Shown here: positions 1 through 46,422 of the stretch, piece by piece | Numbering within the stretch: the stretch's first letter is position 1 | How the letters are laid out: every line of letters starts with the position of its first letter | IMG/VR virus record: IMGVR_UViG_3300025664_000001 | Location: 1-64,000 of that record | Reading direction: 5' to 3' (one strand) | DNA: 64,000 bases | Source: a virus | Translations under genes and position numbers: made by a program | The notes under the pieces: model-generated | Databases searched by the model: none | What the model was told of the DNA's origin: nothing | Seen by the model: only the letters and a program-made list of their open reading frames with translations

Positions 1-792
1 CAAGTCCCAATGCTTCGGTAAATCCTCGGGCAGCTTGATGACGCGCACGCTGCGCGCCGGCAAGGCCAGAAGAATTTCGGCTACCCGGTTCGCGCCAGTC
101 ACCCCGACTTCGTCCGAGTCAGGCCAGATCGTCACGTCCCTCCCCTTAAGGGGAGTGAAGTCGGTGTACTTGGCGGCCTTCGAGCCGCCCGGCATCGTCA
201 TCGGGAACCATTCACCCATGATGCTGATAGCCGCGTCGGCAGTCTTCTCGCCCTCGACAAGCAGGATGGGGCGCGTCTCGCCCTTCAAGAGTTGCAGGCG
301 GTAGAGCGGGCGCGGCTTGGCGAACGTCTTCCACACCCAGCCAGCCTTGCCGCTATCGTAGACTCCCCACGTCTGCGACGCGAAGGTCTTGTCTGTTCGC
401 CCGTCTTCCTTGACTCCCAAGTTCCAACGGTGGACGAGACCGACCGGGTCTCCGTCGGCGGTGAAGTATTGCCAACTGCGGAACGGCTCGCCATAGCGCG
501 GATGGGCAGCACTATCCGGCCAGTCCGTTCCCTTCGGTGCGTGGGGCAGCGGCTCGGACTTCACCGCACGCTTGGGCCATAGACCCTTCGCGTCGAGCGC
601 CTTGATCACGGCCTCTTGCGTGCAGCCGCCGTGGCAATGCACGAGCAGACGACCCTGTTTGGATTCCGAGATTGTTAGGCTCGGGCCAACATCGTCGTGT
701 GCCGGGCAGACAGCATTCCAGCTATCGTCGCCGTTCTTGATCGCACCCCCGAGAGCATTTGCTATGCTCTCCGGAGTAAACATGCCTGCCAT
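1..792 (-). CDS. DNA primase, CHC2 zinc finger plus Toprim (C-terminus beyond window)
   Basis: Makes RNA primers for phage DNA replication. The first 264 codons are visible; the frame runs off the left edge without a stop. The N-terminus has a CHC2-type zinc site (C29-x2-H32, then C53-x3-C57 in VHCHGGC). A Toprim core follows: LLVEGEKT near residues 178-184 and WPDSDE near 223-228, giving the metal-binding Glu and Asp-x-Asp. ATG at 792 is the first Met of the frame and is followed directly by domain sequence. No helicase domain is visible, so a primase-helicase fusion is possible beyond the edge. It is the last visible gene of the leftward block. Confidence 0.9.
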   Translation of the reverse strand, partial: MAGMFTPESIANALGGAIKNGDDSWNAVCPAHDDVGPSLTISESKQGRLLVHCHGGCTQEAVIKALDAKGLWPKRAVKSEPLPHAPKGTDWPDSAAHPRYGEPFRSWQYFTADGDPVGLVHRWNLGVKEDGRTDKTFASQTWGVYDSGKAGWVWKTFAKPRPLYRLQLLKGETRPILLVEGEKTADAAISIMGEWFPMTMPGGSKAAKYTDFTPLKGRDVTIWPDSDEVGVTGANRVAEILLALPARSVRVIKLPEDLPKHWDL

Positions 793-2357: not shown

Positions 2358-2609
2358 TTAAGAAGATTTTCTTCCAAACGGCACGGGCGCCAGCTTCCGG
2401 ATCAACTGCCCGGCCATGTTGACGAGCGCGAGATTGGGCTTGAGCCCGGCCGCAATGTGCGAAACATACTCGTCGGCGCAGTCGCGCTTGTCAGCGAGGG
2501 GCACGGTCTTCCAGTCGGTGAGCTTGGTCAGGGCCGCTTCCCAGCCCGGGCACTCGCCCAGCCGGCGCTTCAGTGCCTCACGCTCAAAGCTGATAATAAG
2601 CTCGCTCAC
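2358..2609 (-). CDS. Hypothetical protein, translationally coupled to the HD hydrolase
   Basis: 83 residues starting VSELIISFEREAL. The frame is open further upstream, but GTG 2609 forms a GTGA overlap with the stop of the HD-domain gene, the arrangement repeated throughout this phage. The sequence has one Cys-rich turn and an amphipathic helix; no family recognised. Confidence 0.65.
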   Translation of the reverse strand: MSELIISFEREALKRRLGECPGWEAALTKLTDWKTVPLADKRDCADEYVSHIAAGLKPNLALVNMAGQLIRKLAPVPFGRKSS

Positions 2610-3256
2610 GGCATGAGCCTGCGGATATCTGCCGGCGGCTTGCCGGGCATCAGATCGAAGTAGGCGTCGATGAACAGCGCCTCGGCCTCGGTCCACGTCC
2701 AGCCCAGCGATGCGGGTGTGATGTTCGTAAGGGGCGGGCCGTAGCGCCAGTGGTCAGGGTGCCAGCGATTGAACGCAGCGTCCGCCTCAGAGTCGGAAAG
2801 CTCGGGGCGGTTCGGCAGAGCGTTGAGCCAGTCGCCGTACGGGACCAGTTCCATCATTTCGGTGGTGAGGATGCGCTTGTCGAGCGTGTGAACTTCTTCC
2901 GGATACGGGTACGGCACGCGCAGCGCGTCGGCGATGGCCTGCTCGACCCGGTCTTCGATGGGGCGCCAGAACGCGATCACTTCCGGCAGCTTCTTGATCG
3001 GACGAATCAGATCAGGCAGGTATGCCTCGCTGGCGTCGTGCATCAGCGCTGCGAACTTATTGTGGAACGATGCCTCCCGAGCCATGCGGACAGAGTGCTC
3101 GGCGACGCTGTAGAAACGTTTCGAGTGGCCGCCGTAACGGCACTTGAGACTCAGGGCGTGCGCGATATCGAAAACGTCCACGTCAGCCGGGTCGGGGTTG
3201 AGCGGCCAGAACTTCTTGCCGGTGAACGTGCGCATCCAAGCATTTTCGTTTTCCAT
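2606..3256 (-). CDS. HD-domain phosphohydrolase (YfbR-like)
   Basis: 216 residues. HD-superfamily metal ligands are visible: H54 in SVAEHSV, then H73-D74 in ALMHDASEAY, with an upstream HALSLKCRYGGH region typical of phage HD hydrolases. Related proteins remove phosphate from nucleotides, so a role in adjusting deoxynucleotide pools is likely. It fits with the nearby MazG-like pyrophosphohydrolase (4659-5294). AGGAG precedes ATG 3256. Substrate is inferred from the family. Confidence 0.85.
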   Translation of the reverse strand: MENENAWMRTFTGKKFWPLNPDPADVDVFDIAHALSLKCRYGGHSKRFYSVAEHSVRMAREASFHNKFAALMHDASEAYLPDLIRPIKKLPEVIAFWRPIEDRVEQAIADALRVPYPYPEEVHTLDKRILTTEMMELVPYGDWLNALPNRPELSDSEADAAFNRWHPDHWRYGPPLTNITPASLGWTWTEAEALFIDAYFDLMPGKPPADIRRLMP

Positions 3257-4658: not shown

Positions 4659-5294
4659 TTAGAAACTCTTACCGCCCTTCGCCCGCCGGGCCGCCGGCTT
4701 GTGATCGTCCCGGTGCTGGTTGTAGACCATCTTCTCAGCGACGGCGCCGTCCAGATCGAGCCCTTCCTGCCCGGCGTAATTGAACACGCGAATGAGCAGA
4801 TCGGCAAGCTCGACTTCCACGGCCTTACGATGCGGCAGATGCTTGTCCTGCATGTTCTTGCGGATGCCCTCGAACGCCTCGGCAATCTCCGTGACGAAGA
4901 GCATGAAGACGTTGCCGGTGTGCGGCGTGATCGGCTTGCCGGTCTTCGGGTCATGGTAAAACTTGTCGGCCGCCCGGCGAGCGATGGCAGACAGAACGTT
5001 GAGCGGCTTGCCGAGCGGGTAGTGACCGAACGTCAGCGCGGCAATCGAAGTCGGCGAGTGCCCGTCGCGCAAGTCCTTGAAGAATTGCTTCAGCCCCGGG
5101 TTCTCGAAATCGCTGGCGAGCATCATCTTGCCCATAACCGGCTTCTTGTCCCACGGCGGCGACTTGGCCATGAGCGCCTTTAGGGCGGCGCGCTTGGCCT
5201 CTTCCGCTTTGAACTGTTCCCAGCACCACGGGCATTGCGAGCGCGGCGCGCGGAGGGCCTGATAGCGCGGATGGGTTTTGCAGGTCAGGGGCAT
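4659..5294 (-). CDS. MazG-like nucleoside triphosphate pyrophosphohydrolase
   Basis: 211 residues. The all-alpha NTP pyrophosphatase signature is clear: E136-x2-E139 in EIAEAFE, then E162-x2-D165 in ELADLL, within a helical C-terminal half. These residues bind magnesium in MazG/dUTPase-like enzymes that hydrolyse NTPs to NMP and pyrophosphate. The N-terminus has a possible zinc site (C5, C21-x2-C24). ATG 5294 overlaps the methyltransferase end by 10 bases. The likely role is nucleotide-pool control or suppressing host alarmone signalling, as proposed for phage MazG proteins. Confidence 0.8.
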   Translation of the reverse strand: MPLTCKTHPRYQALRAPRSQCPWCWEQFKAEEAKRAALKALMAKSPPWDKKPVMGKMMLASDFENPGLKQFFKDLRDGHSPTSIAALTFGHYPLGKPLNVLSAIARRAADKFYHDPKTGKPITPHTGNVFMLFVTEIAEAFEGIRKNMQDKHLPHRKAVEVELADLLIRVFNYAGQEGLDLDGAVAEKMVYNQHRDDHKPAARRAKGGKSF

Positions 5295-5971
5295 TTCGGA
5301 ACTCCTAGAATGTCGCAGCCGAGAAAGTCGATGCCGAGCGCCTTGCAGGCGTCGAGCACCATGAACGAACCGGCGCACGGGTTGACGACGAGACCGCCCG
5401 GCATGACGGTCGCGCCGAGCAGACGCTTGGTAAGCTCCAGCGGCTTGCGGTGCGGATGCAGCTTCGTGTCGGCCTTCTCAGGCCATACGTCGGGAATGCC
5501 GTGATCGGTCCACGTGGCTTTCGCGAGGATGGGGAGCTTCTGGAGCACCATGCAATACTCGCCGCGGCGCCGGGTGCGATAACCCATGCCGATGCGGAGC
5601 TTGTCCCACGTGATCAGATCGACGATCTGGAGCGCGTGGGTCGCAGCGTTGCCGGCAACCGACGTGGAGTCTTCGCCGAAGATCGAAGCCATATTGAAGT
5701 TGCAAAGCTCGAACTTGTCGAGCCAGAGAAAAATGTAGCCGCTCGGCTTCACGAGCAGGGCGATCCATTCGCCCATGTTGAGAATATCGAGCCGGGACAT
5801 TTGCGGCAGCGCGGCGCGGCGAATTTGCCGCTCGCCCTCGTTGCCGTAGCCGAGCTTGTCGAGCCCGGCGCGATACTGGGGGTCGAACACGACAGCGTCA
5901 ACGACCCGATGATTGTCGAAATTGCAGAGCAGATCGAGCCCGCGGCCCTTGTTGCGCGTGTTGAGCTTCAC
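5285..5971 (-). CDS. DNA methyltransferase, DPQY type
   Basis: 228 residues. Motif IV is D30-P-Q-Y33, a variant of the amino-methyltransferase [DNS]PP[YFW] motif. Near 176 is RKPLEL, and NPCAGS near 197 is the SAM-binding motif I placed at the C-terminus, as in beta-class adenine-N6 or cytosine-N4 enzymes. It probably modifies phage DNA against host restriction. I recall a phage subfamily with DPQYR...GNEGERQ, so the variant is unlikely to be a loss of function. GTG 5971 forms a GTGA overlap with the upstream gene. No partner endonuclease gene is adjacent. Confidence 0.85.
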   Translation of the reverse strand: MKLNTRNKGRGLDLLCNFDNHRVVDAVVFDPQYRAGLDKLGYGNEGERQIRRAALPQMSRLDILNMGEWIALLVKPSGYIFLWLDKFELCNFNMASIFGEDSTSVAGNAATHALQIVDLITWDKLRIGMGYRTRRRGEYCMVLQKLPILAKATWTDHGIPDVWPEKADTKLHPHRKPLELTKRLLGATVMPGGLVVNPCAGSFMVLDACKALGIDFLGCDILGVPKCP

Positions 5972-11113: not shown

Positions 11114-11616
11114 GACGTGCGCTGCCACGTTAGGGTGAGCGTCGAGATGCGGTAGTCGTATTCCTCCCTGATCAGATCGCAGGGACCGCCAAGGACGCGC
11201 TCAGCGTCACGCAGCGCATCGACGATGCCCCGAGCGGCTCCGGTGTTGGCAAGACGTTCGAACGTGAGTGCCTTCGACAACTGATACTTCAGCTTCGACT
11301 CGAACGTCGGCTTCTGCGTGCGAACGTCGGCCGCCTTATTAGGATAGCGATACGACGGGTCACGCATCAGATTGGCCGCGTCAAACCATCCTTCGTGATT
11401 CTCTTCGTTTTTCCAGTACGATACATAGTAGCGGGGGTAGCGCCAACCAGAGTCAAAGGCTCGGATGACACCCGCCTGTAGGGGAACGTCCCACCATTCC
11501 TCCCCTAGCTTCACCGTCGCGCCGCTCGGGAACTTGTGATGGCCGACAGGATAGGTATAGGCCATCTTTCCTATATCACGGAAATAGACCGTCTCGCCTA
11601 CTTTGAATCCGTCCAT
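11110..11616 (-). CDS. Hypothetical protein
   Basis: 168 residues. The N-terminal half is rich in Tyr and Trp (KMAYTYPVGHHKFPSGA, WRYPRYYVSYWKN), suggesting a small beta domain, and the C-terminal half is helical. No family recognised. Overlaps the end of the glycosyltransferase gene by 19 bases. Confidence 0.65.
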   Translation of the reverse strand: MDGFKVGETVYFRDIGKMAYTYPVGHHKFPSGATVKLGEEWWDVPLQAGVIRAFDSGWRYPRYYVSYWKNEENHEGWFDAANLMRDPSYRYPNKAADVRTQKPTFESKLKYQLSKALTFERLANTGAARGIVDALRDAERVLGGPCDLIREEYDYRISTLTLTWQRTS

Positions 11617-12695
11617 TTGAATTTTCCTAGCTCGGCCCAGCCCACGCCCCAGAGCGTGAGCAGGCGGGTGAAGTAGGCTTCGTACTTTTGGCCGATGTGG
11701 TCAAGAGAATAGTTGTCCACGACGTGCTCGCGAATCTTCACCGGGTCGAGCGTATCCACCATGTTGCAGGCGTTGCAGAACTCGACGAGATTGCGGCAAC
11801 GGTAGCCGGTGACTCCCTGCACGACCGTCTCAGTGAACGCACCCCAGTCCGTCGTAATGGCCGGCGTGCCGCACGCCATCGCCTCGATCACGGCATTGCC
11901 GAACGGTTCGATGTAGCGCGTCGGCGCGAGCAGCGCGCGAGCCTCGCCCATGAGCTTGGACCGGAGCTTGGGTCCGACGATGCCATGATACTCAACATCG
12001 CCCACGAGCCCGGACGGCGTGCCCGGGCCGGCGACGACGAGCTTGGCCCCGAGCGCCGCGGTGATCTGCGACGCCACTTCCACACCCTTACGCGACGACG
12101 GGTCGAGCCTGCCGACGAACAGGTAGGAGTCTTTGCGTTTCGTCGAGAACGGAAAATCTTTCGGGTCGAGATAGCCCGGGATGACGGCGTCGTACCACCA
12201 GCCCTCGATGCCGTGCGCGTTGTTCATGCTCTGCGCTCCGGCAAGCGTGTGCATCCACGCATACGATTCGAAGACGCGATACTTTGAGAACGTGCCGGCG
12301 TAGCCGACGCCGAACTCAACCGCCATGTTCGACCCGTACGCATGTGCAATCTCTTGTTGCGCGCCGGATATAAGACAGATGAAGTCGTACTTCTTGACGC
12401 GCCGCTTCATCGCCCAGATCGCGTTGGCCGTGAAGATTTTCCAATGAGGCATCGTGTTGTTGAACGACGAGTAGACGTAGCCCGAAACATTCTCGCCCTT
12501 GGCCCGCTGCTTCTCGGTGATGCACGGGACGTGCTCCGTGCAGGGGGCCGTGTTCTTGGCGCCCGAGTAGAGAATGACTTCGTGGCCACGTGCCATCATC
12601 ATGCGGCAGAAGCCCATGACCTTGGTCGTGTACGCGCACGCCGGGAAGTTCCCGTCGGTTTGCGTGTGCGGCAGACTGACAACATGGAAGCGCAT
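11598..12695 (-). CDS. Glycosyltransferase, GT4-like
   Basis: 365 residues with two Rossmann-like halves. GRLDPSSRKGVEVA begins the C-terminal domain, and EPFGNAVIEAMACGTP followed by TGYRC is the E-x7-E nucleotide-sugar-binding signature of GT4 retaining enzymes. In phages such enzymes modify DNA bases, virion proteins or host surface sugars; which applies is unknown. I use ATG 12695 (MRFHVVSLPHTQTDG); a TTG at 12731 would extend it. GTGTAAACG lies two bases before this ATG, in place of a ribosome site. Confidence 0.8.
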   Translation of the reverse strand: MRFHVVSLPHTQTDGNFPACAYTTKVMGFCRMMMARGHEVILYSGAKNTAPCTEHVPCITEKQRAKGENVSGYVYSSFNNTMPHWKIFTANAIWAMKRRVKKYDFICLISGAQQEIAHAYGSNMAVEFGVGYAGTFSKYRVFESYAWMHTLAGAQSMNNAHGIEGWWYDAVIPGYLDPKDFPFSTKRKDSYLFVGRLDPSSRKGVEVASQITAALGAKLVVAGPGTPSGLVGDVEYHGIVGPKLRSKLMGEARALLAPTRYIEPFGNAVIEAMACGTPAITTDWGAFTETVVQGVTGYRCRNLVEFCNACNMVDTLDPVKIREHVVDNYSLDHIGQKYEAYFTRLLTLWGVGWAELGKFKWTDSK

Positions 12696-12700
12696 AGCGT

Positions 12701-13015
12701 TTACACGGTCCCTATCTTGTTTCCCGTCCAATAGACCTTGGTCTCACGTGCGTTGCTCGTCTTGTCTTTCATCCTCACGTATTCTCTCGTGGGCAGTAGA
12801 AGACCACGCCTGATCGCGGCAGCGGTCAGCGCTCCCCAAGCGTGAGGATCGGTAGGCGGGCCAATCGTCGGTTCTAGGGCGTGACGAAGCTGCTCGCCGG
12901 TAAAATTGCGGGAGCCAAACGTGGCAATGGTTTCAAGCGCGGCTTTCAGCCACGCCGCGTTAGGCTTGAGAACGCGCGCCATTCCCTCGTCACGGGCTTC
13001 TTCTCCGGGTTCCAT
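12701..13015 (-). CDS. Winged-helix-like hypothetical protein
   Basis: 104 residues. Pattern helix - NFTGEQLRHALE - helix (WGALTAAAIRRGLL) - YVRMKDK ... VYWTG reads as a small winged-helix domain that I recall from replication regions of other phages, function unknown. TAATG overlap with the upstream gene. Confidence 0.6.
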   Translation of the reverse strand: MEPGEEARDEGMARVLKPNAAWLKAALETIATFGSRNFTGEQLRHALEPTIGPPTDPHAWGALTAAAIRRGLLLPTREYVRMKDKTSNARETKVYWTGNKIGTV

Positions 13016-16941: not shown

Positions 16942-17144
16942 CAGCGTTTCACCTTGCAATCGTAGTGATCGAACAGCTTGACCGTCTGACTGACGGCGTC
17001 GAACTCGGGAACAGTGCCACGTGAACTGCAACGCGGATTCAGTTTGAGCGCGTCTTGGCCGGCTTGATACGACAATGCATCGAATGCCATGCCGACAAAC
17101 ACGACCATGAGTATCACGGAGAAGACGAGCGAGATTCGGCTCAC
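16941..17144 (-). CDS. Small membrane or secreted protein
   Basis: 67 residues with an N-terminal hydrophobic segment (ISLVFSVILMVVFVGMAFDA) and two Cys in a short outside region (NPRCSS ... HYDCKVKR). GTG 17144 is in a GTGA overlap with the 56-residue gene upstream. Paired with the next gene, which has the same build. Confidence 0.6.
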   Translation of the reverse strand: MSRISLVFSVILMVVFVGMAFDALSYQAGQDALKLNPRCSSRGTVPEFDAVSQTVKLFDHYDCKVKR

Positions 17145-17311
17145 GACGGACTCTCTTTGAAATCGACGAGGGCATCGGCCAAACGCTCTTCGGCAGTGGC
17201 GATGAACTTCTCGTCCTTGCGAAGACAGGCCCGTATCAGATCGCCTACGCAGCGCGCGGTTTCTAGCGCTTCGATGCGAACAATCTCTTCGGGTGTTCTA
17301 GCGGGCATCAT
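17141..17311 (-). CDS. Small hypothetical protein, 56 residues, probably leaderless
   Basis: MMPARTPEEIVRIEALETAR..., helical and charged. ATGATG at 17311 lies six bases after the -10 of the promoter at 17318-17346. Its TGA overlaps the GTG of the following gene. No family recognised. Confidence 0.6.
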   Translation of the reverse strand: MMPARTPEEIVRIEALETARCVGDLIRACLRKDEKFIATAEERLADALVDFKESPS

Positions 17312-17317
17312 CACGGT

Positions 17318-17346
17318 GTCCTACTCTTGGTTCTTGGGCCGGTCAA
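17318..17346 (-). promoter_or_regulatory. Promoter TTGACC-N17-TAGGAC
   Basis: -35 TTGACC (17346-17341), -10-like TAGGAC (17323-17318), spacing 17, six bases before ATG 17311. A GTTAACC word lies just upstream. Likely start of the long leftward operon below 17311. Confidence 0.55.
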
Positions 17347-17383
17347 CAGGAATCTTAGACGCACGGTTAACGCGCATCCGTCG

Positions 17384-17752
17384 TCATTTCACCGGCAGAC
17401 CAGTTGCAGGGTCGGTCATCACGTGCGCGGCGTGTTTTTCTTCGGCTTCTATTCGAGCGGCTTGGACTTTCGCTTCGCGGGCCTTGGACCGAATCCAGAA
17501 GTTCATCAGCCTAGTATCGAGTTGAGAGCCGCGAAGTAAAAAGCGCCACTTGCCCGGAACCCAGTGGCCGTCAACATGACGGATGATTCCGCGCGTCACG
17601 CTCACATTGGCCGGGATATAGTAGTCGTCGCGCCACGTCAGGAATCGCACTTTCTCGGTCCTTGCCGGCGACACGTTTTCGGTCGCATCGGGAAGAACGA
17701 GGATGGGCTTTCCGTGGTAGTGGAAGGTCGCGTCGGACTTGGTCAGGGCCAT
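17384..17752 (-). CDS. Hypothetical protein at the head of the leftward region
   Basis: 122 residues: beta-rich first half (FLTWRDDYYIPANVSVT) and a charged C-terminal helix (AREAKVQAARIEAEEKHA). No ribosome site; ATG 17752 is eight bases after the -10 of the promoter at 17761-17789, so it may be leaderless. First gene left of the intergenic region, so an early role or a regulator is possible. Confidence 0.65.
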   Translation of the reverse strand: MALTKSDATFHYHGKPILVLPDATENVSPARTEKVRFLTWRDDYYIPANVSVTRGIIRHVDGHWVPGKWRFLLRGSQLDTRLMNFWIRSKAREAKVQAARIEAEEKHAAHVMTDPATGLPVK

Positions 17753-17760
17753 TTGGGAAG

Positions 17761-17789
17761 CGATAACATGTGAGGGGATACAGCGTCAA
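17761..17789 (-). promoter_or_regulatory. Promoter TTGACG-N17-TTATCG
   Basis: -35 TTGACG (17789-17784), -10-like TTATCG (17766-17761), spacing 17, eight bases before ATG 17752. It lies at the left edge of the TTGTGCAG repeat cluster, which could regulate it. Confidence 0.5.
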
Positions 17790-17812
17790 GGGTCTTGGTC
17801 CGAATTGTGACG

Positions 17813-18078
17813 GCTTGTGCAGGTTGTGCAGCACTTGTGCAGCGCAAGGCTAGGAAAGCCGCGGCCTGCACAACCTGCACAAGCTGCACGAGTTGATCTT
17901 CAATTCGCTCATACTTGTATCGTATAACACATGTGCAGGAATATATGTGTTACACTACACAACTCGTGCGAAATATGGAGATTCGGGCCGAGGTTGTGCA
18001 GTTGGCCTCCAACCCCTTACGGCTCTAGGTGCACAAGTGCTGCACAGGTGCTTTTTCTGGGTTGTGCAGCTTGTGCAG
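17813..18078. repeat. TTGTGCAG iteron-like cluster with a 19-bp inverted repeat
   Basis: This 650-bp gene-free region (17753-18402) separates the leftward and rightward halves. It holds eight exact TTGTGCAG words: plus orientation at 17815, 17824, 17835, 17994, 18062 and 18071, and CTGCACAA at 17866 and 17875; one-mismatch copies are at 17884, 17931 and 18040. Several are 9 bp apart. The arms 17813-17831 and 17866-17884 form a perfect 19-bp inverted repeat. A second inverted repeat, TAACACAT/ATGTGTTA, is at 17925-17952. This is what a replication origin or a multi-site operator looks like; I see no DnaA box. From 18080 to 18402 I see only a weak -10-like CATAAT at 18346. Confidence 0.7.
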
Positions 18079-18402
18079 TGGATTTGACGCCCTTCCCGGA
18101 CTGTCAGCGAACCTGCACTTCGGGTCGATACGAGCGCGTCGCAATGTGCTATCTTTATGATCTGGTGCGCAGTGGACACAATGCACACCCAAGCCCTATA
18201 CGAGCCCCCGGCCAAAGCCCGCGCACCTAACCCCGAGTTGCTAGTTTCTTGCTCCGCAACCGCTTGATATTTCGTCGAGCAAAGCAACGATCTGTTCACC
18301 GTAGGAACGGCCGAACTCCACCCTCGTCGCCGCCTGATCGCGTCCCATAATACACGTTATGCGACTAGAAATACCAGCCAGTTCAAAGGCTTAAGCATAC
18401 AA

Positions 18403-19014
18403 ATGACTGAAAGAATGCACCCTGAAAGCATCCAGCATCGGCCGATATCCAGCGCACTGGCACTGGTCGAGATGCGGCGCGCTATACTGGCGCGCGTTGA
18501 TGTGATCCAGAACTTCGTCGATGTGGCCAACGGGGTTATGCCTGCACGCTGGGCAGCGGTGCTAGATGTGCCCGGACGTAAAGACGAAGTAACAGGTAAG
18601 CTGATCAAGGGCATGCCGGCCAAGCTTGCTCTGGAGCACATACTGCGTGCGAACGAACTACTGCTCAAGCGCATACTGCCCGAGTATAGGCAGATCGAAG
18701 TCAGTAGCGATACTGGTGATAACGCTATGTCCTTTGATCAGGCTAAGGCGCTAATGGCAGCGACGCTGATCAGCGCAGTCAACAGCGCAGGCGGGCGCTA
18801 CGTAGACGGCAAGCTGGTCATGCCCCCGGTGGAGCCGGGCCAAGAGACTGGGCTGATCATAGACGAGGCAGTGGTGGTTGAGCCTGACCCGGTAGCCGAG
18901 GCGCTCGTTAGCGTGGGAAGGCGGATCAGTGCCGACGATCTGGAATCGTTAGACCCCGTCTCGCCTTTGGACGCTGGGGTAGCCTCCCCGCAGGATTTTT
19001 CCCCGGCAAAATAA
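18403..19014 (+). CDS. terS: Putative small terminase subunit
   Basis: 203 residues, helical, with a central basic region (DVPGRKDEVTGKLIKGMPAKLALEHILRAN, residues about 63-92) and an acidic C-terminus. No diagnostic motif; the call rests on its place as first gene of the rightward block, three genes ahead of the large terminase. It would recognise the packaging site. Codon use differs from neighbours: more ATA, CTA and other AT-ending codons, suggesting a different recent origin. Ribosome site before ATG 18403 is weak. Confidence 0.45.
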   Translation: MTERMHPESIQHRPISSALALVEMRRAILARVDVIQNFVDVANGVMPARWAAVLDVPGRKDEVTGKLIKGMPAKLALEHILRANELLLKRILPEYRQIEVSSDTGDNAMSFDQAKALMAATLISAVNSAGGRYVDGKLVMPPVEPGQETGLIIDEAVVVEPDPVAEALVSVGRRISADDLESLDPVSPLDAGVASPQDFSPAK

Positions 19015-19423: not shown

Positions 19424-19617
19424 AACTGTGTAAACGGCTTCGGTCGGTGACGGCGCGATTCAGGCGCACCGACTATCTCTACTTCGGCCACTCGACGGTG
19501 ATCGACGGGCGCCCGTACGACCGCGGCTTCACGCAGGGCTTTGGGCCGTTCATGCTGCACGTTCACTGGAAATCGAAGAAGCTCGTCGAGGGAGATGCAT
19601 CACTTGGACCCTCTTAA
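19420..19617 (+). CDS. Small hypothetical protein
   Basis: 65 residues (MKLCKRLRSVTARFRR...), basic N-terminus, beta-rich end with HVHWKSKK. Overlaps the large terminase start by about 20 bases. No family recognised. Confidence 0.55.
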   Translation: MKLCKRLRSVTARFRRTDYLYFGHSTVIDGRPYDRGFTQGFGPFMLHVHWKSKKLVEGDASLGPS

Positions 19618-21016
19618 CGACGCAGAATTCGTGCGCCTGCTCGCGCAGGCAAACGAAGCCGGCTTGCTCGACGAGATGCTGCGTTCGCATCCCGAGATTG
19701 CCCGCGTCATCGGCGCCGACTGGGCGCTGCTCCAGCGGCCGGACCAACGCACCCCGCCCGGCGACTGGGTGACGTGGCTCATTCTGGCAGGACGCGGCGC
19801 CGGCAAGACGCGCACCGGAGCCGAGTGGATCAATGGGCTGGCGGCCACGGGCCTCTATCCGAGCATCGCGCTTGTTGCCGAGACCGCGGCCGACGTGCGC
19901 GACGTTATGATGGACGGCCCGAGCGGCATCATGCACACCGGCCACCCGGATTCCCGGCCCAAGTACCGAACTTCCCGCCGCAAGGTCGAGTGGCCGAACG
20001 GCACGATTGCGCAGACTTACTCCGCCGACGACCCCGAGCAGCTTCGTGGTCCGCAGTTTCACGCGGCTTGGTCCGACGAGTTGGCGAAATGGCGCTACGC
20101 CGACGAGGCGTGGTCCAACTTGCAGTTTGGCCTTCGACTCGGGCAAAATCCGAGGCAGACTGTGACTACTACTCCGCGTCCGATGAAGCTCATTCGCGAG
20201 ATGATCATTGAGTCGCGAAAGAAGCATCCCTCGGTCGTTCTCACCCGCGCTTCGACTAGCGCGAACATGGTCAACCTCGCGCCGTCGTTCCTGAAGACGG
20301 TCGTTGCGAAATACGTCGGCACTCGTCTCGGCCGGCAAGAACTGGAAGCCGAGATTCTCGACGACAACCCTTACGCGCTCTGGAAGCGGGACACGATAGA
20401 CAAGTACCGCGTGCCGGGCGTGAATCGGGAACTGACGCGCATCGTCGTCTCGGTAGACCCGCCGACGACGAGCGGTGAAGACGCCGACGAGTGCGGCATC
20501 ATCGTTGCCGGCTGCACGGCCGGGTTTGGGAACGACCGGCACTACTTCGTGCTGGACGACATGACGACGCAGGGCATGCGGCCGATGCGCGATAGTGTCG
20601 ATGACGATTTGGGCTGGGCGGACATTGCGATCAATGCGTGGAAGCTTCACCACGCCGATTGCATCGTCGCCGAAGTGAACAACGGCGGCGAGATGGTCAC
20701 GCAGACTATCACCCGCGCTTCAGGCGGGACGGCGATTGCCGTTCGCTCCGTGCGTGCGACGCGCGGCAAAGTTACTCGGGCCGAACCTATCTCGGCACTC
20801 TACGCTCAGGGCAAGGTGCATCACGTCGGCACCTTCGCCAAGCTGGAGGATCAGATGACAGAGTTTTCCAGCGACTTCGACAAGAAGACCGCCGGCTACT
20901 CCCCCGACCGCGTCGATGGCCTCGTCTGGGCACTGACGGAACTGTCGGGTAGCAACTGGGAAACGATTGATGACCGCGTCGGCGCAGTCGGCCCGCGGCA
21001 ACAGGGTGAGGGATAG
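19595..21016 (+). CDS. terL: Large terminase subunit
   Basis: About 473 residues. Motor ATPase: LAGRGAGKT (Walker A, near residue 64-72) and FHAAWSDELAKW (Walker B with catalytic Glu, near 155). Nuclease domain: VSVDPP near 288, then DCIVAEVNNGG near 355 and a C-terminal PDRVDGLVWAL Asp, the metal-binding acidic residues that cut concatemeric DNA. It drives genome packaging at the portal. Start is ATG 19595 or TTG 19604; GAGGGAG is better spaced for the TTG. Confidence 0.93.
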   Translation: MHHLDPLNDAEFVRLLAQANEAGLLDEMLRSHPEIARVIGADWALLQRPDQRTPPGDWVTWLILAGRGAGKTRTGAEWINGLAATGLYPSIALVAETAADVRDVMMDGPSGIMHTGHPDSRPKYRTSRRKVEWPNGTIAQTYSADDPEQLRGPQFHAAWSDELAKWRYADEAWSNLQFGLRLGQNPRQTVTTTPRPMKLIREMIIESRKKHPSVVLTRASTSANMVNLAPSFLKTVVAKYVGTRLGRQELEAEILDDNPYALWKRDTIDKYRVPGVNRELTRIVVSVDPPTTSGEDADECGIIVAGCTAGFGNDRHYFVLDDMTTQGMRPMRDSVDDDLGWADIAINAWKLHHADCIVAEVNNGGEMVTQTITRASGGTAIAVRSVRATRGKVTRAEPISALYAQGKVHHVGTFAKLEDQMTEFSSDFDKKTAGYSPDRVDGLVWALTELSGSNWETIDDRVGAVGPRQQGEG

Positions 21017-23858: not shown

Positions 23859-26061
<2,203 letters not shown>

Positions 26062-26062
<1 letters not shown>

Positions 26063-34232: not shown

Positions 34233-34442
34233 ATGGGCGTGTTTGTGGGAACGGATGGGAAGCCGATGCTCGGGAGCGACGGCCGGCCTGTCATGGAAGA
34301 CCAGTTCGAGAATGAGCCGGGTCCGCCGAAGACTCTCCGTGCCGGCGGCATGAGCGCAGAAGCAGAAGCCGCCTTCAATGCGAAGACGGCTGAAATGATT
34401 CGGGCACGGGCGGAGCGGCAGTTGCGACGGGCGGTAGGTTAG
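34233..34442 (+). CDS. Small protein downstream of the effector polyprotein
   Basis: 69 residues (MGVFVGTDGKPMLGSDGRPV...), two GTDGKP/GSDGRP repeats then a charged helix with many Arg. It starts one base after the polyprotein stop, so it is co-translated. It could be a chaperone or an immunity factor; no family recognised. Confidence 0.6.
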   Translation: MGVFVGTDGKPMLGSDGRPVMEDQFENEPGPPKTLRAGGMSAEAEAAFNAKTAEMIRARAERQLRRAVG

Positions 34443-34624
34443 CCTGTCTTGCGGTGTTCCGCTACGAACGCCTCGACGTGATCCTCTTCGGACAGCGTCT
34501 CCCGCGCGATGATGTTGATCATCACAAGCATGTGCTTGGCGTCGGGCAAGGTGGCGGGAACCAGTTTGTCGGTGTACTCCGCGATTCTGGTAAGAGCCCT
34601 TGTGAGGGCGGGGTTAGTTGTCAT
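34439..34624 (-). CDS. Small hypothetical protein
   Basis: 61 residues, helical (TRALTRIAEYTDKLVPATLP). Ends four bases inside the convergent plus-strand gene. Part of the minus-strand island. Confidence 0.55.
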   Translation of the reverse strand: MTTNPALTRALTRIAEYTDKLVPATLPDAKHMLVMINIIARETLSEEDHVEAFVAEHRKTG

Positions 34625-34625
34625 C

Positions 34626-35255
34626 TTAAATCCTTTCGATTGCGGGCGCGGCGGTTATCATCGCGCCTTCTAGGTAGCGGGCGGGGACTTTGAAGTAGCA
34701 CCCTTCCGAGTAGAACCGGACCTTGCGCCCCGGCCCCTTGTAGATGGTGAAGGTGTCCCGTTCGCCGGCCGCGCCGTAGTTGAGCTTCTTGGCGAGCTTG
34801 AGGGTATCGCCGGCTCGTAGTCCCCGCTTCTTGGCCTTCAGATCGGCCGCCGCGATGGACCCGATCCGGTAGTCAGTGGCCGACCGAAGTCCGCTCCACT
34901 CGTTCTCGGGAATGCCGGGAGGCACGGGCTTCAACTTGCTCGCCGCGGCGATGATCGACTTCGGCGCCGGGCAACCGTATGGTCCCATGGTCTCGTACAT
35001 GTCCTTCCAGCCGAAGGTGAAACCATCCTTGGCCTTCGGGCTGCTCTTGATCGCGATGACCGCGATTCCGCGGAACGTTCCGTCGGCGTCCACTTCGTAG
35101 ATCGAAGCATCGTACGGAGTGGCGACGTACTTGATCACGAGGAACACCGCCTCTCGCGTCGCACTCTCTGCGACGATGTTGAGCGAGCGGTACTCGTTCT
35201 TGATCACAGCGAGCGCCTTAACGCCCGGTTCCTTGTGTGTGAAAGTCCAGCCCAT
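34626..35255 (-). CDS. Conserved phage protein starting MGWTFTH, function unknown
   Basis: 209 residues. MGWTFTHKEPGVKAL, GFTFGWKDMYETMGPYGCPAP and the beta-rich C-terminal half are typical of a phage/plasmid family of unknown function that I recall from other genomes. CAGGAG precedes ATG 35255. It overlaps the upstream gene by no more than a few codons. Confidence 0.7.
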   Translation of the reverse strand: MGWTFTHKEPGVKALAVIKNEYRSLNIVAESATREAVFLVIKYVATPYDASIYEVDADGTFRGIAVIAIKSSPKAKDGFTFGWKDMYETMGPYGCPAPKSIIAAASKLKPVPPGIPENEWSGLRSATDYRIGSIAAADLKAKKRGLRAGDTLKLAKKLNYGAAGERDTFTIYKGPGRKVRFYSEGCYFKVPARYLEGAMITAAPAIERI

Positions 35256-35269
35256 CTGATTTTCTCCTG

Positions 35270-35611
35270 TTAGTCGGTGTAAGACCAAGCGCGCTTTACG
35301 AAGGCGCCGAGTCCGGCGTCGTCCAGCACCTTACGGAAGGCTCGGAATGCGTCTTCCGTAATGTCGGCGTTTTGAGACCTGATGCCCTCGGGGACCGGAA
35401 GCCGGACGAAGCCTTCGTGGTGGCCGACGATGCCGGCGGACACTGCCGCGGCAAAGAAAGCCTTGGCGCCTTTGACGCCGCCCTTGCGAAGCTCCAGCAT
35501 GTAGCCGCCGCATGACCCGGCGTCAACGCGACCGTCGGCGATCCACCTAGCGAGCGCGGCCTTGTTGCTGGCCTCGATGGCGCGAGCGATGATGATGTGG
35601 AAGCCTTCCAT
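35270..35611 (-). CDS. Hypothetical protein
   Basis: 113 residues, Ala/Gly-rich helices (AIEASNKAALARWIADG). No family recognised. Upstream sequence has GGAGAAAATC before ATG 35611, the same leader as its neighbours. Confidence 0.6.
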   Translation of the reverse strand: MEGFHIIIARAIEASNKAALARWIADGRVDAGSCGGYMLELRKGGVKGAKAFFAAAVSAGIVGHHEGFVRLPVPEGIRSQNADITEDAFRAFRKVLDDAGLGAFVKRAWSYTD

Positions 35612-35620
35612 GATTTTCTC

Positions 35621-35806
35621 CTAGCCGAATTCGGCGGTTGAGTGAGAGACCGTCACGCCGTCCTTTTCGCAGAGCACGACGGACACGAGATAAGCCTTCT
35701 TGGCACTGACGCCGAGCTTGGCGACTGCCAGCTTCCAAGCCTCATGCGTGGACGAGGCGTAGACCTCGGTCTCACGTCCTGAGTAAAAAGCCTTGTAGCC
35801 GTTCAT
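35621..35806 (-). CDS. Small hypothetical protein
   Basis: 61 residues (MNGYKAFYSGRETEVYASSTHEAWK...), alpha/beta, resembling small phage proteins that start with a Tyr-Lys-Ala-Phe strand. CAGGAGAAACCCC gives a strong ribosome site. CGTTTACAC lies 36 bp upstream. Confidence 0.65.
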   Translation of the reverse strand: MNGYKAFYSGRETEVYASSTHEAWKLAVAKLGVSAKKAYLVSVVLCEKDGVTVSHSTAEFG

Positions 35807-35894
35807 GGGGTTTCTCCTGTCTAACACCTAGAACATAAGGCCGTTTACACGTCGCCGCCATTGCCATGTTCAAAGGTGGTTAATCCTTTCCGAG

Positions 35895-35938
35895 CCCGGG
35901 GTCTAGGCCCCGGGTCTCGCCAGCGGTGCCGCCGCTGG
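35895..35938 (-). terminator. Two GC-rich hairpins downstream of the 35952-36146 gene
   Basis: CCCGGGG (35895-35901)/CCCCGGG (35908-35914) and CCAGCGG (35920-35926)/CCGCTGG (35932-35938). Perfect stems but no T-run on either strand. May act as a weak terminator or transcript stabiliser. Confidence 0.4.
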
Positions 35939-35951
35939 GCGGGCCGCGGCT

Positions 35952-36146
35952 CTAGCCGCCGGCATTCCGTATCGCCCTCTTCGCGGTCTCGCGGGGCGAA
36001 AAGCCGTCTTCGTAATCGTTGTCGAAGAGGAAGTCGTCCAGATCGGCAGTGCTCAACCCGGTCAACTTGACCACTTCAGCCTCGACCTTGGCGAGCCAAG
36101 CCCCGTACTTGAAGCCGGGTTCGCGAGCTAGGTTGGAAAGGGGCAT
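35952..36146 (-). CDS. Small acidic protein (KYGAWLAKVEA family)
   Basis: 64 residues. GAWLAKVEAEVVKLTGLSTADLDDF...YEDGFSPRETAKRAI matches a small phage/bacterial family I recall (DUF5419-like) with no known function. First gene of the minus island; the 36147-36359 gap holds its leader and that of the divergent protease gene. Confidence 0.65.
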   Translation of the reverse strand: MPLSNLAREPGFKYGAWLAKVEAEVVKLTGLSTADLDDFLFDNDYEDGFSPRETAKRAIRNAGG

Positions 36147-43524: not shown

Positions 43525-46422
43525 GTGACCGACTATAACCTGACCGTCAAGGCCGATGTGTCCGCGGCGACTGCGTCCGTCGCGGAACTCAACGACCAGA
43601 TTGAAGGGCTTGCCACGTCCTCTGACGCGGCGGGCGAGTCTGCGTCGGCCATTGGCGCCAACCTCGCGCAATCGGCCTCTGAAGCTACCCCCGCGGTCTC
43701 TGCCGTCAACGACGGCGTCGCCAAGCTCTCCCAGTCTCTTCAGAGCATGCAACAGTTCGCCGGGCAGGCGTTCGCCTTTGTCGGGGTGAGCCTTGGCGTC
43801 GATGCGCTGATTCACATGAACGACGCCGCGATCACGGCGTCGAATGCTTTGCACTCGTTGACTAACTCGACCGAAGCATACAATCAGGTCAGCAAAGATT
43901 TGCTGGGCATCGCTGATCAATCGCGTCAGAGTTTCGACGGCGTCGTGAGTCTTTACCAGCGGGTAGACAACGCGACGCAAGGGATGCACGTCTCGTCGAG
44001 CAACTTGCTGCTGATCACCCAGACCCTTACGGAAGCCCTGTCGCTTAGCGGCCAGTCGGCCGAGGGCGGCGGCCGAGCGATCTTGGGGCTGACTCTTGCT
44101 ATGCAAGGTGGCGCGGCGGGTGGCGCTCGCTTGGGACTGACCCTTCAGCGTTTCCAACCGTTGCTTGCGGCCATGGAAGAGTCTTCGCACAAGACCGCGG
44201 CCGAGCTTAGTAAGCTCGTTGGGCCGGAGCTAATCACGGCCATTGAGAAAGCGTCTGGCGCCCTCAACGATGCTTTTGTCGCCGGGTTCATTCCGGTCAA
44301 TCAGGCGATGACGGTTTTCAAAAACAATTTCGCGGATGCGTTCACGGACCTTGGCAACAAGACGGGGGCTTTTCAGGCGTTGTCGGACGTGATCATTGTC
44401 CTTGCGAATCATATGTCCATCGTCTTGCCGATTATTCTCGCGCTCGGCGGAGCGTTGGCAACACTGACCATCGTGGCGGGTGTCTCGACGGCGTTCGATG
44501 TTCTGTCCACCGCGGCTACCGCCTTGAAGGACACGTTCTGGGCACTCAACGCTTCGCTGCTCGCGAACCCGTTCGTTCTTATTGCCGCTGGTCTCACGCT
44601 TCTTATTCTTGCCATCCCTAACCTGTCGGGTGCAGTCGAAACTTTGCTCGGGTGGTTCAAAGAACTCGGGGATTGGTTCGACAACAACATCTTGCCCGGC
44701 CTCAAGCTTATCGCCCAAGGCTTCGGCTACTTCATTCAGATTTTGATTCCCGGCATAAACATTCTGAGGGACGTGGTCAACCTTCTCGCCTACCTCACGG
44801 GGAACATCAAGGACAACGTGGAAGCGCTTGGCAAGGGGGCTACCGGGTTCACTCAGTTTGGCGACGCTGCCGGGCACGCCATGGCCTCGCTTAACGCGCT
44901 GACCAAAGCTCAAACGGCCACGACTACGGCCACGACGAATCAGACCGCGGCTAACCACGGCCTGACGACCGGAATGAACGGAGACCAATACTACATCGAT
45001 CAGTACGGCAAGTGGCAGGAGACTCTTGCGAGTCAGATCAACGATACGAACAAGGCTTTGGCGGCGCAGATTAAGCTCGACGCCGCGCTCGCCGCCGCTG
45101 CCAAGGAGTCGAACGTTGGGGCTTCTGTTCTTTCGCTCCAGTCGGGCAACAGCTACGTCAACACGTACGAAGGGGAGTACAGCGGCTTTGCGTCTGGCGG
45201 CAACATGCCGGCGGGGCAGATCGCCATGGTGGGCGAGAACGGCCCCGAGCTTATCGTTCCCTCGACGAGCGGCATCGTCGTGCCGGCGACCACGACCGAA
45301 ACGATTATGAAGCTGGCGAAGACGCTGGCCTCGACGATCTTCGCGCAGAACACTAGCACTCTCGATCCGATCACGGGACTGCCTACTGGCCTGACGCCCG
45401 CGGGCTCCAGCGCGTATCAGGCTGGCAACTCTACCTTTGCTCAGCTTGGCGCACTACAGAATGTTTTCGGTGGCGGCTTTGGCAACGGCACCGGAGCGTC
45501 CGGCGCCGCAGGCGGCCCGAACATTGGCACGCCTGACATTCTGCCGAAGGATTCTACGTACACTGTTTCGCAACTCTCGACCGCGTTTGCGAACAGCCTC
45601 TTCCAGACGGAAGCCAACGAAGTCAATCTTGGCGTGCAGGCCGGGCAGATCACGGGCGCGCAGGGGACGGCCATCTCTCAAGTGCTGAGTGAATCCATCG
45701 CGGACTGGCAGACCTATCAGGCCAAAGGCCCCGATCTGACGGGTCTCTACGCCGGGAGCAACGGCTTTTACGGCTACTTCAAGGACGTGCGGAAAATGAT
45801 CAGCCAATACTCGTGGCTGAAGAACTTCGTCGGTCAAGCGTTCGGCGCGCAATTCGCTGCCGGCATCATGGACCCGGCGCCGGTTACGGCAACCAGTTCG
45901 AGCACCGCCGGCACTTCTTCTGGGGTGTCCGACTCCGTGTCCGGGGCGCAGGCAACTCTTGCTGCCCACATTGCGGACGGTTCGTGGCAGTGGAGCAATA
46001 CCACCGCTCTCATGCCGAACGGCCTCGATATTCGCGAAGTGTTGCAGGTGAAAGAATCCATCGGCGGCACTCCGCAATGGGTTGACGCGCACGACGTTGG
46101 CTTGTATCAATACGATCAGTTCGCCCCGTCCCCCGGCTTCGTAGTGACGAACGCCGGCAAGTTTGCGACCGGCGGCCAGTTCAACGTCGGCGGAGCGGGC
46201 GGCACGGACAGTCAGCTTGTGCAGTTCCTTGCGTCGCCCGACGAGACGGTGACGGTGCAGACCCCTTCCCAGCGTAAGAGCATGGCGGAGGCCACCGCTG
46301 GCGTCACTGTGAACATGACCATCAACACCCCGGACGCGAATAGCTTCGGCAAGAGCCAGACCCAGATCATCAACAGTCTGAAAATTCAACTCGATCAGAT
46401 CACCGCGCGAGTGAACCAGTAA
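43525..46422 (+). CDS. Tail tape measure protein
   Basis: 965 residues, which sets tail length (by the usual rule about 0.15 nm per residue, near 145 nm). Helical Ala/Ser/Gln-rich N-terminal region, hydrophobic segments about residues 285-365 (IVLPIILALGGALATLTIV, FVLIAAGLTLLILAIPN), and the common SGGNMPAGQIAMVGENGPELIVPS near 555-580. GTG 43525; stop overlaps next ATG (TAATG). Confidence 0.9.
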   Translation: MTDYNLTVKADVSAATASVAELNDQIEGLATSSDAAGESASAIGANLAQSASEATPAVSAVNDGVAKLSQSLQSMQQFAGQAFAFVGVSLGVDALIHMNDAAITASNALHSLTNSTEAYNQVSKDLLGIADQSRQSFDGVVSLYQRVDNATQGMHVSSSNLLLITQTLTEALSLSGQSAEGGGRAILGLTLAMQGGAAGGARLGLTLQRFQPLLAAMEESSHKTAAELSKLVGPELITAIEKASGALNDAFVAGFIPVNQAMTVFKNNFADAFTDLGNKTGAFQALSDVIIVLANHMSIVLPIILALGGALATLTIVAGVSTAFDVLSTAATALKDTFWALNASLLANPFVLIAAGLTLLILAIPNLSGAVETLLGWFKELGDWFDNNILPGLKLIAQGFGYFIQILIPGINILRDVVNLLAYLTGNIKDNVEALGKGATGFTQFGDAAGHAMASLNALTKAQTATTTATTNQTAANHGLTTGMNGDQYYIDQYGKWQETLASQINDTNKALAAQIKLDAALAAAAKESNVGASVLSLQSGNSYVNTYEGEYSGFASGGNMPAGQIAMVGENGPELIVPSTSGIVVPATTTETIMKLAKTLASTIFAQNTSTLDPITGLPTGLTPAGSSAYQAGNSTFAQLGALQNVFGGGFGNGTGASGAAGGPNIGTPDILPKDSTYTVSQLSTAFANSLFQTEANEVNLGVQAGQITGAQGTAISQVLSESIADWQTYQAKGPDLTGLYAGSNGFYGYFKDVRKMISQYSWLKNFVGQAFGAQFAAGIMDPAPVTATSSSTAGTSSGVSDSVSGAQATLAAHIADGSWQWSNTTALMPNGLDIREVLQVKESIGGTPQWVDAHDVGLYQYDQFAPSPGFVVTNAGKFATGGQFNVGGAGGTDSQLVQFLASPDETVTVQTPSQRKSMAEATAGVTVNMTINTPDANSFGKSQTQIINSLKIQLDQITARVNQ

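Follow-up and report, generated by a model that had tools for sequence, protein, structure and literature searches.

Genomic setting of the iteron cluster

The DNA analysed here, referred to as the window, is the whole 64,000-nucleotide stretch that forms positions 1-64000 of the 70,651-bp IMG/VR virus record of an uncultured phage. An iteron cluster lies within a gene-poor gap (17753-18402) that has leftward genes on one side and rightward genes on the other, which confirms its placement in the earlier note at the switch between the two gene directions. The first leftward gene beside the cluster (17384..17752, minus strand) encodes a protein of 122 aa with no family match. The first rightward ORF (18403..19014, plus strand, 203 aa) has no family or phage match, gave a weak codon score and was not picked by the gene model. 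The rightward late arm starts with the gene for the terminase large subunit (19541..21016, plus strand) and continues with portal (20967), capsid and tail genes, and the leftward arm runs from 17752 down to 1 and then, if the molecule is circular, from 70587 to 57101. A glycosyltransferase gene (phrog_3408, window 11598-12731) is present in the leftward early arm, and a small block of leftward genes (window 34439-36146), two of them without a family match, lies within the late arm. Searches of named phages found no DNA similarity to positions 17000-19000. GC skew, suggested in the earlier note as a check for an origin, had no extremum at 18 kb and was uninformative.

Iteron sites and the AT-rich core

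Eight exact copies of the 8-mer TTGTGCAG are present in 17815-18078, on the plus strand at 17815, 17824, 17835, 17994, 18062 and 18071 and on the minus strand at 17866 and 17875. Outside the cluster the window contains a single further copy, at 46217; the chance expectation for the whole window is 1.6, and the maximum in 100 dinucleotide shuffles was 5. Within 17813-18078 there are also five one-mismatch copies (17884-, 17931+, 17955-, 18029- and 18040-), where three near copies had been reported previously. The recount upheld the eight exact copies on both strands and the recurrent 9-bp spacing, which is exact in four neighbouring pairs of sites, and the consensus of the cluster is the 9-bp iteron [C/G]TTGTGCAG. 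In a look-elsewhere test with 40 dinucleotide shuffles of the 70.6-kb record, the most frequent 8-mer of any sequence per 300 bp reached 3 or 4 copies, against the 8 observed. With one mismatch allowed, the best 9-mer of the gap 17753-18402 was CTTGTGCAG, found in 12 places compared with no more than 4 in shuffles. Elsewhere in the genome only 8-mers with 10 and 9 copies (from 24782) exceed this density; they belong to the repetitive coding sequence of a collagen-like tail fibre (window 24233-26062), in which 8-mers reach up to 10 copies per 300 bp.

Among all 80-bp windows of the 70.6-kb record, 17896-17975 has the lowest GC content, 0.36 (mean 0.61, sd 0.057), and the iteron sites form two sets that flank it, a layout absent from the earlier note. 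The left set (17815..17891) comprises the exact copies at 17815+, 17824+, 17835+, 17866- and 17875- and the variant TCGTGCAG at 17884-, arranged in 9-bp steps. The right set (17994..18078) comprises the exact copies at 17994+, 18062+ and 18071+ and the one-mismatch copies TTGTGCAC (18029-) and CTGTGCAG (18040-). The AT-rich segment itself, a candidate DNA unwinding element, holds few, degenerate sites (17931+ and 17955-) and an inverted repeat of TAACACAT and ATGTGTTA (17925-17932/17945-17952). Perfect 19-bp arms separated by 34 bp, as previously described, are located at 17813..17831 (plus strand) and 17866..17884 (minus strand), each consisting of two tandem iterons, those of the right arm on the other strand. 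The left and right halves of the cluster are connected by two more inverted pairs, also perfect, with lengths of 17 nt and 15 nt.

A probable primase-helicase encoded at the ends of the record

Open frames run off both ends of the record, one of 264 codons on the minus strand from base 1 and one of 495 codons at the other end. The 264-codon frame has matches to primase families and corresponds to the N-terminal (primase) part of the proposed initiator (1..792, minus strand, cut by the contig end). The second matches the helicase half of primase-helicases and corresponds to the helicase and C-terminal part (record 69163-70650, L004:9163-10650, minus strand), which lies outside the window and is cut by the record end. 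Together the two frames would form one protein of ~760 residues; they do not join directly, and a few nucleotides at the join are presumably missing. Because the primase-helicase gene is split by both ends, the record probably represents a nearly complete circular molecule with the break inside this gene. The gene would start at window position 792 and therefore lies ~17 kb from the cluster, a distance that counts against a functional link between the two.

The helicase matched PF19263 (DUF5906) with 58.7 bits, compared with 38.2 bits for P4 alpha, both above the cut-off, and phrog_1156 and phrog_1829 match this helicase and P4 alpha with E < 1e-27 each. A match to phrog_6088 was also obtained for the primase-helicase of this phage. 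In the primase half of the split gene, Zn_ribbon_DnaG and DUF6371 fell just below the cut-off. Direct comparison of P4 alpha with small alignments of the protein by hhalign gave no match (Neff about 2), and the comparison was made instead through common PHROG and Pfam profiles, by which the helicase was shown to be homologous to that of P4 alpha.

A C-terminal DNA-binding domain is plausible. The profile phrog_1156, which extends to residue 741 of P4 alpha, covers residues 74-439 of 474 of the phage's own protein, and a low-confidence model of the C-terminal domain (pLDDT 64) places a beta hairpin after helices, an arrangement seen in winged helices. A fold search with this model returned generic winged helices only (best E 0.013), with the P4 domain not among the top 50 matches, and Pox_D5, the C-terminal profile of P4 alpha, did not match the domain at E 0.001. 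A structure model of the helicase was set aside (pLDDT 51).

The phage also encodes its own family A DNA polymerase. A dATP/dGTP pyrophosphohydrolase (PF18909), a YfbR-like 5'-deoxynucleotidase and a MazG-like protein are encoded at record 66145-66627 and window 2606-3256 and 4659-5378, and these genes, together with the polymerase, suggest remodelling of the nucleotide pool or a modified base. Modification with 2-aminoadenine was considered because of the dATP/dGTP pyrophosphohydrolase; PurZ was looked for and none was found.

The same iteron core in other phages

A search pattern of two tandem TGTGCAG motifs plus one inverted copy returned 15 viral and 26 bacterial or archaeal loci. Viral loci including L203-L207, L210, L212-L215, L234/L257 and L090/L184 contain TGTGCAG blocks of ~250-300 bp with several sites on both strands. 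PF19263 (DUF5906, SF3 helicase) is encoded in 12 of the 17 other viral records with a clustered core but in 1 of 50 control records, each of which carries a single chance match to the motif (Fisher p 1e-8; with close relatives roughly collapsed, about 3e-4). The clustered-core records that lack PF19263 are 6-10 kb fragments. Eleven records were examined for the position of the block, and in eight of them it begins 10-25 bp past the stop codon of the primase-helicase gene. The other three have, respectively, a block 558 bp away, a scattered site overlapping the gene end, and a cluster elsewhere (L247, the L208 contig); the L247 helicase is unrelated by BLASTP. The helicase of this phage is only ~25% identical to those encoded beside TGTGCAG iterons, which counts against it as the binder of this motif here.

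Annotated phages with related primases also have iteron blocks of ~280 bp directly 3' of the gene, with a motif that differs per phage: TGTGCGGG in S1, TGTGCAGGG in Mcat3, TGTGTTGGG in pAN and Meadow, TGTGTCGGG in PG1 and TGTCTGA in H4907. A further pattern scan added L295, in which DUF5906 is present, and the group L290/L292/L296, in which TTGTGCAG clusters occur without DUF5906; in L292 the cluster directly follows a Toprim/AAA_25 primase-helicase gene. These three loci carry a dense TTGTGCAGA hairpin cluster, so that the core is common and, in L292, the helicase family is different.

Several candidates were rejected. The pattern TTGTGCAGNTTGTGCAG alone was too short, most of its 120 viral matches being single, and the tandem TTGTGCAGNTTGTGCAG matches in L107, L110, L138 and L188 are on one strand at multiples of 9 bp, like coding repeats. 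Matches in Azospirillum soli recur on many contigs, look like dispersed palindromic repeats and were discarded as origins; at L222, L224, L227, L228, L232, L237, L239 and L241 they form a short, REP-like palindromic arrangement of TGTGCAG. Loci retrieved through the terminase large subunit (L006-L081) contain no TTGTGCAG cluster.

Position of the cluster in the nearest relatives

The closest named helicases are those of YuA-like phages (Mesyanzhinovviridae), with 33% identity. In YuA, MP1412, CN2, RHph_I65, Donnerlittchen, A1432 and Bhz59, the lowest-GC window falls in the pre-terminase or post-primase gap (z -4.6 to -7.1, measured over the whole genome of YuA and over stretches of 5.7-22 kb for the other six; in Bhz59 the gap concerned is the end of the record). 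Clusters above every shuffle were found in three of these gaps: CN2 has three TACTTACCT and three inverted copies in 9-bp steps, RHph_I65 has a 9-mer cluster with nine copies of CTTAACTTT, and Donnerlittchen has a 9-mer cluster of seven. The RHph_I65 gap (MN988541.1 16769-17066, L282 1270-1567), which is unannotated and precedes terS, also contains seven copies of AAGTTAAGA on both strands and is a probable origin. In YuA and MP1412, 9-bp tandem copies of TAAGTTAAG are present without significant enrichment; as a point against the origin reading, the 9-mer enrichment in YuA, MP1412, A1432 and Bhz59 equals or comes close to the shuffle maximum.

Across portal, capsid, tail, polymerase, helicase and primase genes, the 76-kb record G085 shares synteny with this phage. 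It has 12 sites of the GAGTGGACG type at 15.2-15.65 kb, against a shuffle maximum of 5, in a gap of 1.6 kb that holds no genes and precedes its late arm, which is led by the portal gene. Two observations count against the origin reading: the iteron gap of G085 is not its lowest-GC site, and no pre-terminase cluster is present in most portal-based fragments or in Polewnik. In all, the genomic place is largely kept and the iteron sequence changes among kin. The conservation of repeats in relatives to which the earlier note had pointed thus did not hold for the sequence in the nearest named kin, YuA having no TGTGCAG at all, and held largely for place and architecture.

Interpretation of the cluster

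On the strength of its layout and AT-rich core, of the association between the motif and primase-helicase genes, and of where such gaps lie in kin, the cluster is interpreted as a P4/PICI-type replication origin, with the phage's own primase-helicase as the candidate binder of the iterons, at a probability of about 0.73. The Toprim primase and SF3 helicase (DUF5906) protein would use a C-terminal winged-helix domain to bind the 9-bp iterons that flank the AT-rich core. Once assembled at the iterons it would melt the core, load as a hexameric helicase and then prime, and the phage's family A DNA polymerase would extend the primers. We infer binding, melting and the direction of the forks, as well as the primase-helicase rather than another phage protein as the binder. 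It is named only as a candidate because it is ~25% identical to the helicases associated with TGTGCAG and its closer kin (YuA, 33%) lack this motif.

An origin and a master operator were the main options in the earlier note; that proposal is supported, and comparative evidence clearly favours the origin because of the two-set layout, the occurrence of the core beside P4-alpha-type genes elsewhere, the phage's own distant homologue of these genes and the AT-rich, iteron-bearing gaps in kin. A phage repressor or activator that acts on the iterons and thereby regulates the two divergent units, leftward (early) and rightward (late), is unlikely, although the position at the switch between the arms, its main support, the tandem and inverted arrangement typical of operators and the several uncharacterised small early genes in the window are consistent with it. 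No match to a sigma-70-type promoter was found in 17300-18700 (0.8 expected by chance), so there is no obvious promoter for the sites to overlap, though promoters of other types may be present; elsewhere the same iterons follow a replication gene instead of lying at a promoter, and the grouping of thirteen sites about the lowest-GC window is more in keeping with an origin. Operator function would be conceivable as a second role, and the two roles would be combined if the initiator acted at the origin as its own regulator.

It is improbable that the origin is read by another factor, either host DnaA or a small phage protein, which would hand over to the helicase. A weak HTH_3 match, below the cut-off, in an early gene (record 66602-67063) agrees with this, as do the TTGTGCAG clusters of L290/L292/L296, which lack DUF5906 and indicate that the motif goes with more than one helicase family. 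However, the clustered core is strongly enriched in phages that encode DUF5906, and the iteron sequence varies from phage to phage beside the primase-helicase gene, which suggests a phage-encoded reader. The DnaA box, TTATNCACA, matches the iteron only in part, and this argues against DnaA. A further reading takes the cluster as a site for packaging or partition (pac/cos or parS-like) close to the terminase genes on their upstream side; the large terminase gene lies 1.5 kb downstream, and in some phages the small terminase subunit binds to repeated sites. Such a function is nevertheless very improbable, since in the TGTGCAG phages it is the primase-helicase gene that the block follows, the equivalent blocks of P4 are ori and crr, no ParA/ParB gene was present among the proteins scanned, and an AT-rich core is not known to act in packaging.

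Read as an origin, the cluster and the primase-helicase offer a testable origin and initiator pair for a phage group for which no published origin was found in the open-access papers searched. The comparisons suggest that origins of the P4/PICI style occur widely among ordinary tailed phages, their location largely fixed and their iteron changing fast, and iteron and primase-helicase pairs collected from many phages could serve to work out how the initiator recognises DNA. More speculatively, and at low probability, the TGTGCAG core at 9-bp spacing may be an origin 'address' common to several unrelated replication systems (DUF5906 SF3 and Toprim/AAA_25). Phages or satellites that infect the same cell could then trigger or titrate one another's origins, and close kin would escape by changing the iteron at a fixed place.

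Comparison with known replication systems

Mesyanzhinovviridae (YuA, CN2, MP1412) and RHph_I65 resemble this phage in their helicases (~33% identity) and in a lowest-GC window before the small terminase gene, several with 9-bp iterons. Unlike here, their early and late genes are co-directional, their iterons are different (for example TACTTACCT and CTTAACTTT) and, by BLASTP, their terminase is unrelated to that of this phage. The iteron phages with DUF5906 primases (Stenotrophomonas S1, Moraxella Mcat3, IMG/VR L203-L217 and L090/L184) are similar in their cores, TGTGCAG(G) or TGTGCGGG, which occupy both strands of a ~280-bp block at 9-bp steps. Their blocks, however, adjoin the initiator gene, their iterons are GG-extended and not preceded by T, and their helicases are ~25% identical to the one encoded here.

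The annotated satellite phage P4 (NC_001609) has 8-bp type-1 repeats (GGTGAACA) in ori and crr, on both strands, with adjacent repeats mostly 9-10 bp apart; crr ends 45 bp from the alpha stop codon, and ori lies between leftward and rightward genes, as does the cluster described here. The winged-helix domain of P4 alpha binds the type-1 repeats, after which unwinding and priming follow (summarised in PMC4234260). The P4 iteron, GGTGAACAG, agrees with the relatives' iteron GGTGTGCAG in 7 of 9 positions. P4 and the present phage both have iterons of 8-9 bp on both strands, many of them 9-10 bp apart, and P4 has, as proposed for this phage, an initiator that combines a Toprim primase and an SF3 helicase with DUF5906. 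The differences are that P4 needs both ori and crr, the latter adjoining alpha, where a single cluster was found here, that the iteron sequence differs (TTGTGCAG in this phage) and that the Pox_D5 C-terminal profile is unmatched here.

Origins of PICIs always have two iteron sets around an AT-rich region, and a Pri-Rep-ori segment of a PICI replicated a plasmid (PMC6092414). By description, the Pri-Rep-ori of PICIs (SaPI, EcCICFT073) is alike in that two iteron sets flank an AT-rich segment and are read by an island-encoded primase/initiator (PMC6092414). The PICI origin, however, lies immediately 3' of rep, and the present phage is large and has its own DNA polymerase. Features of P4/PICI-type origins found here are thus 8-9-bp repeats on both strands in steps of ~9 bp, two sets around an AT-rich segment, and a primase/SF3 helicase initiator encoded in the same genome. 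A block immediately 3' of the initiator gene, as in crr and the PICI ori, was not found, the cluster being ~17 kb away. Because P4's own ori is also away from alpha, adjacency defines only crr and the PICI ori; in its absence, the proposal is therefore that the cluster would work like a P4-type origin, and not that it is a PICI ori.
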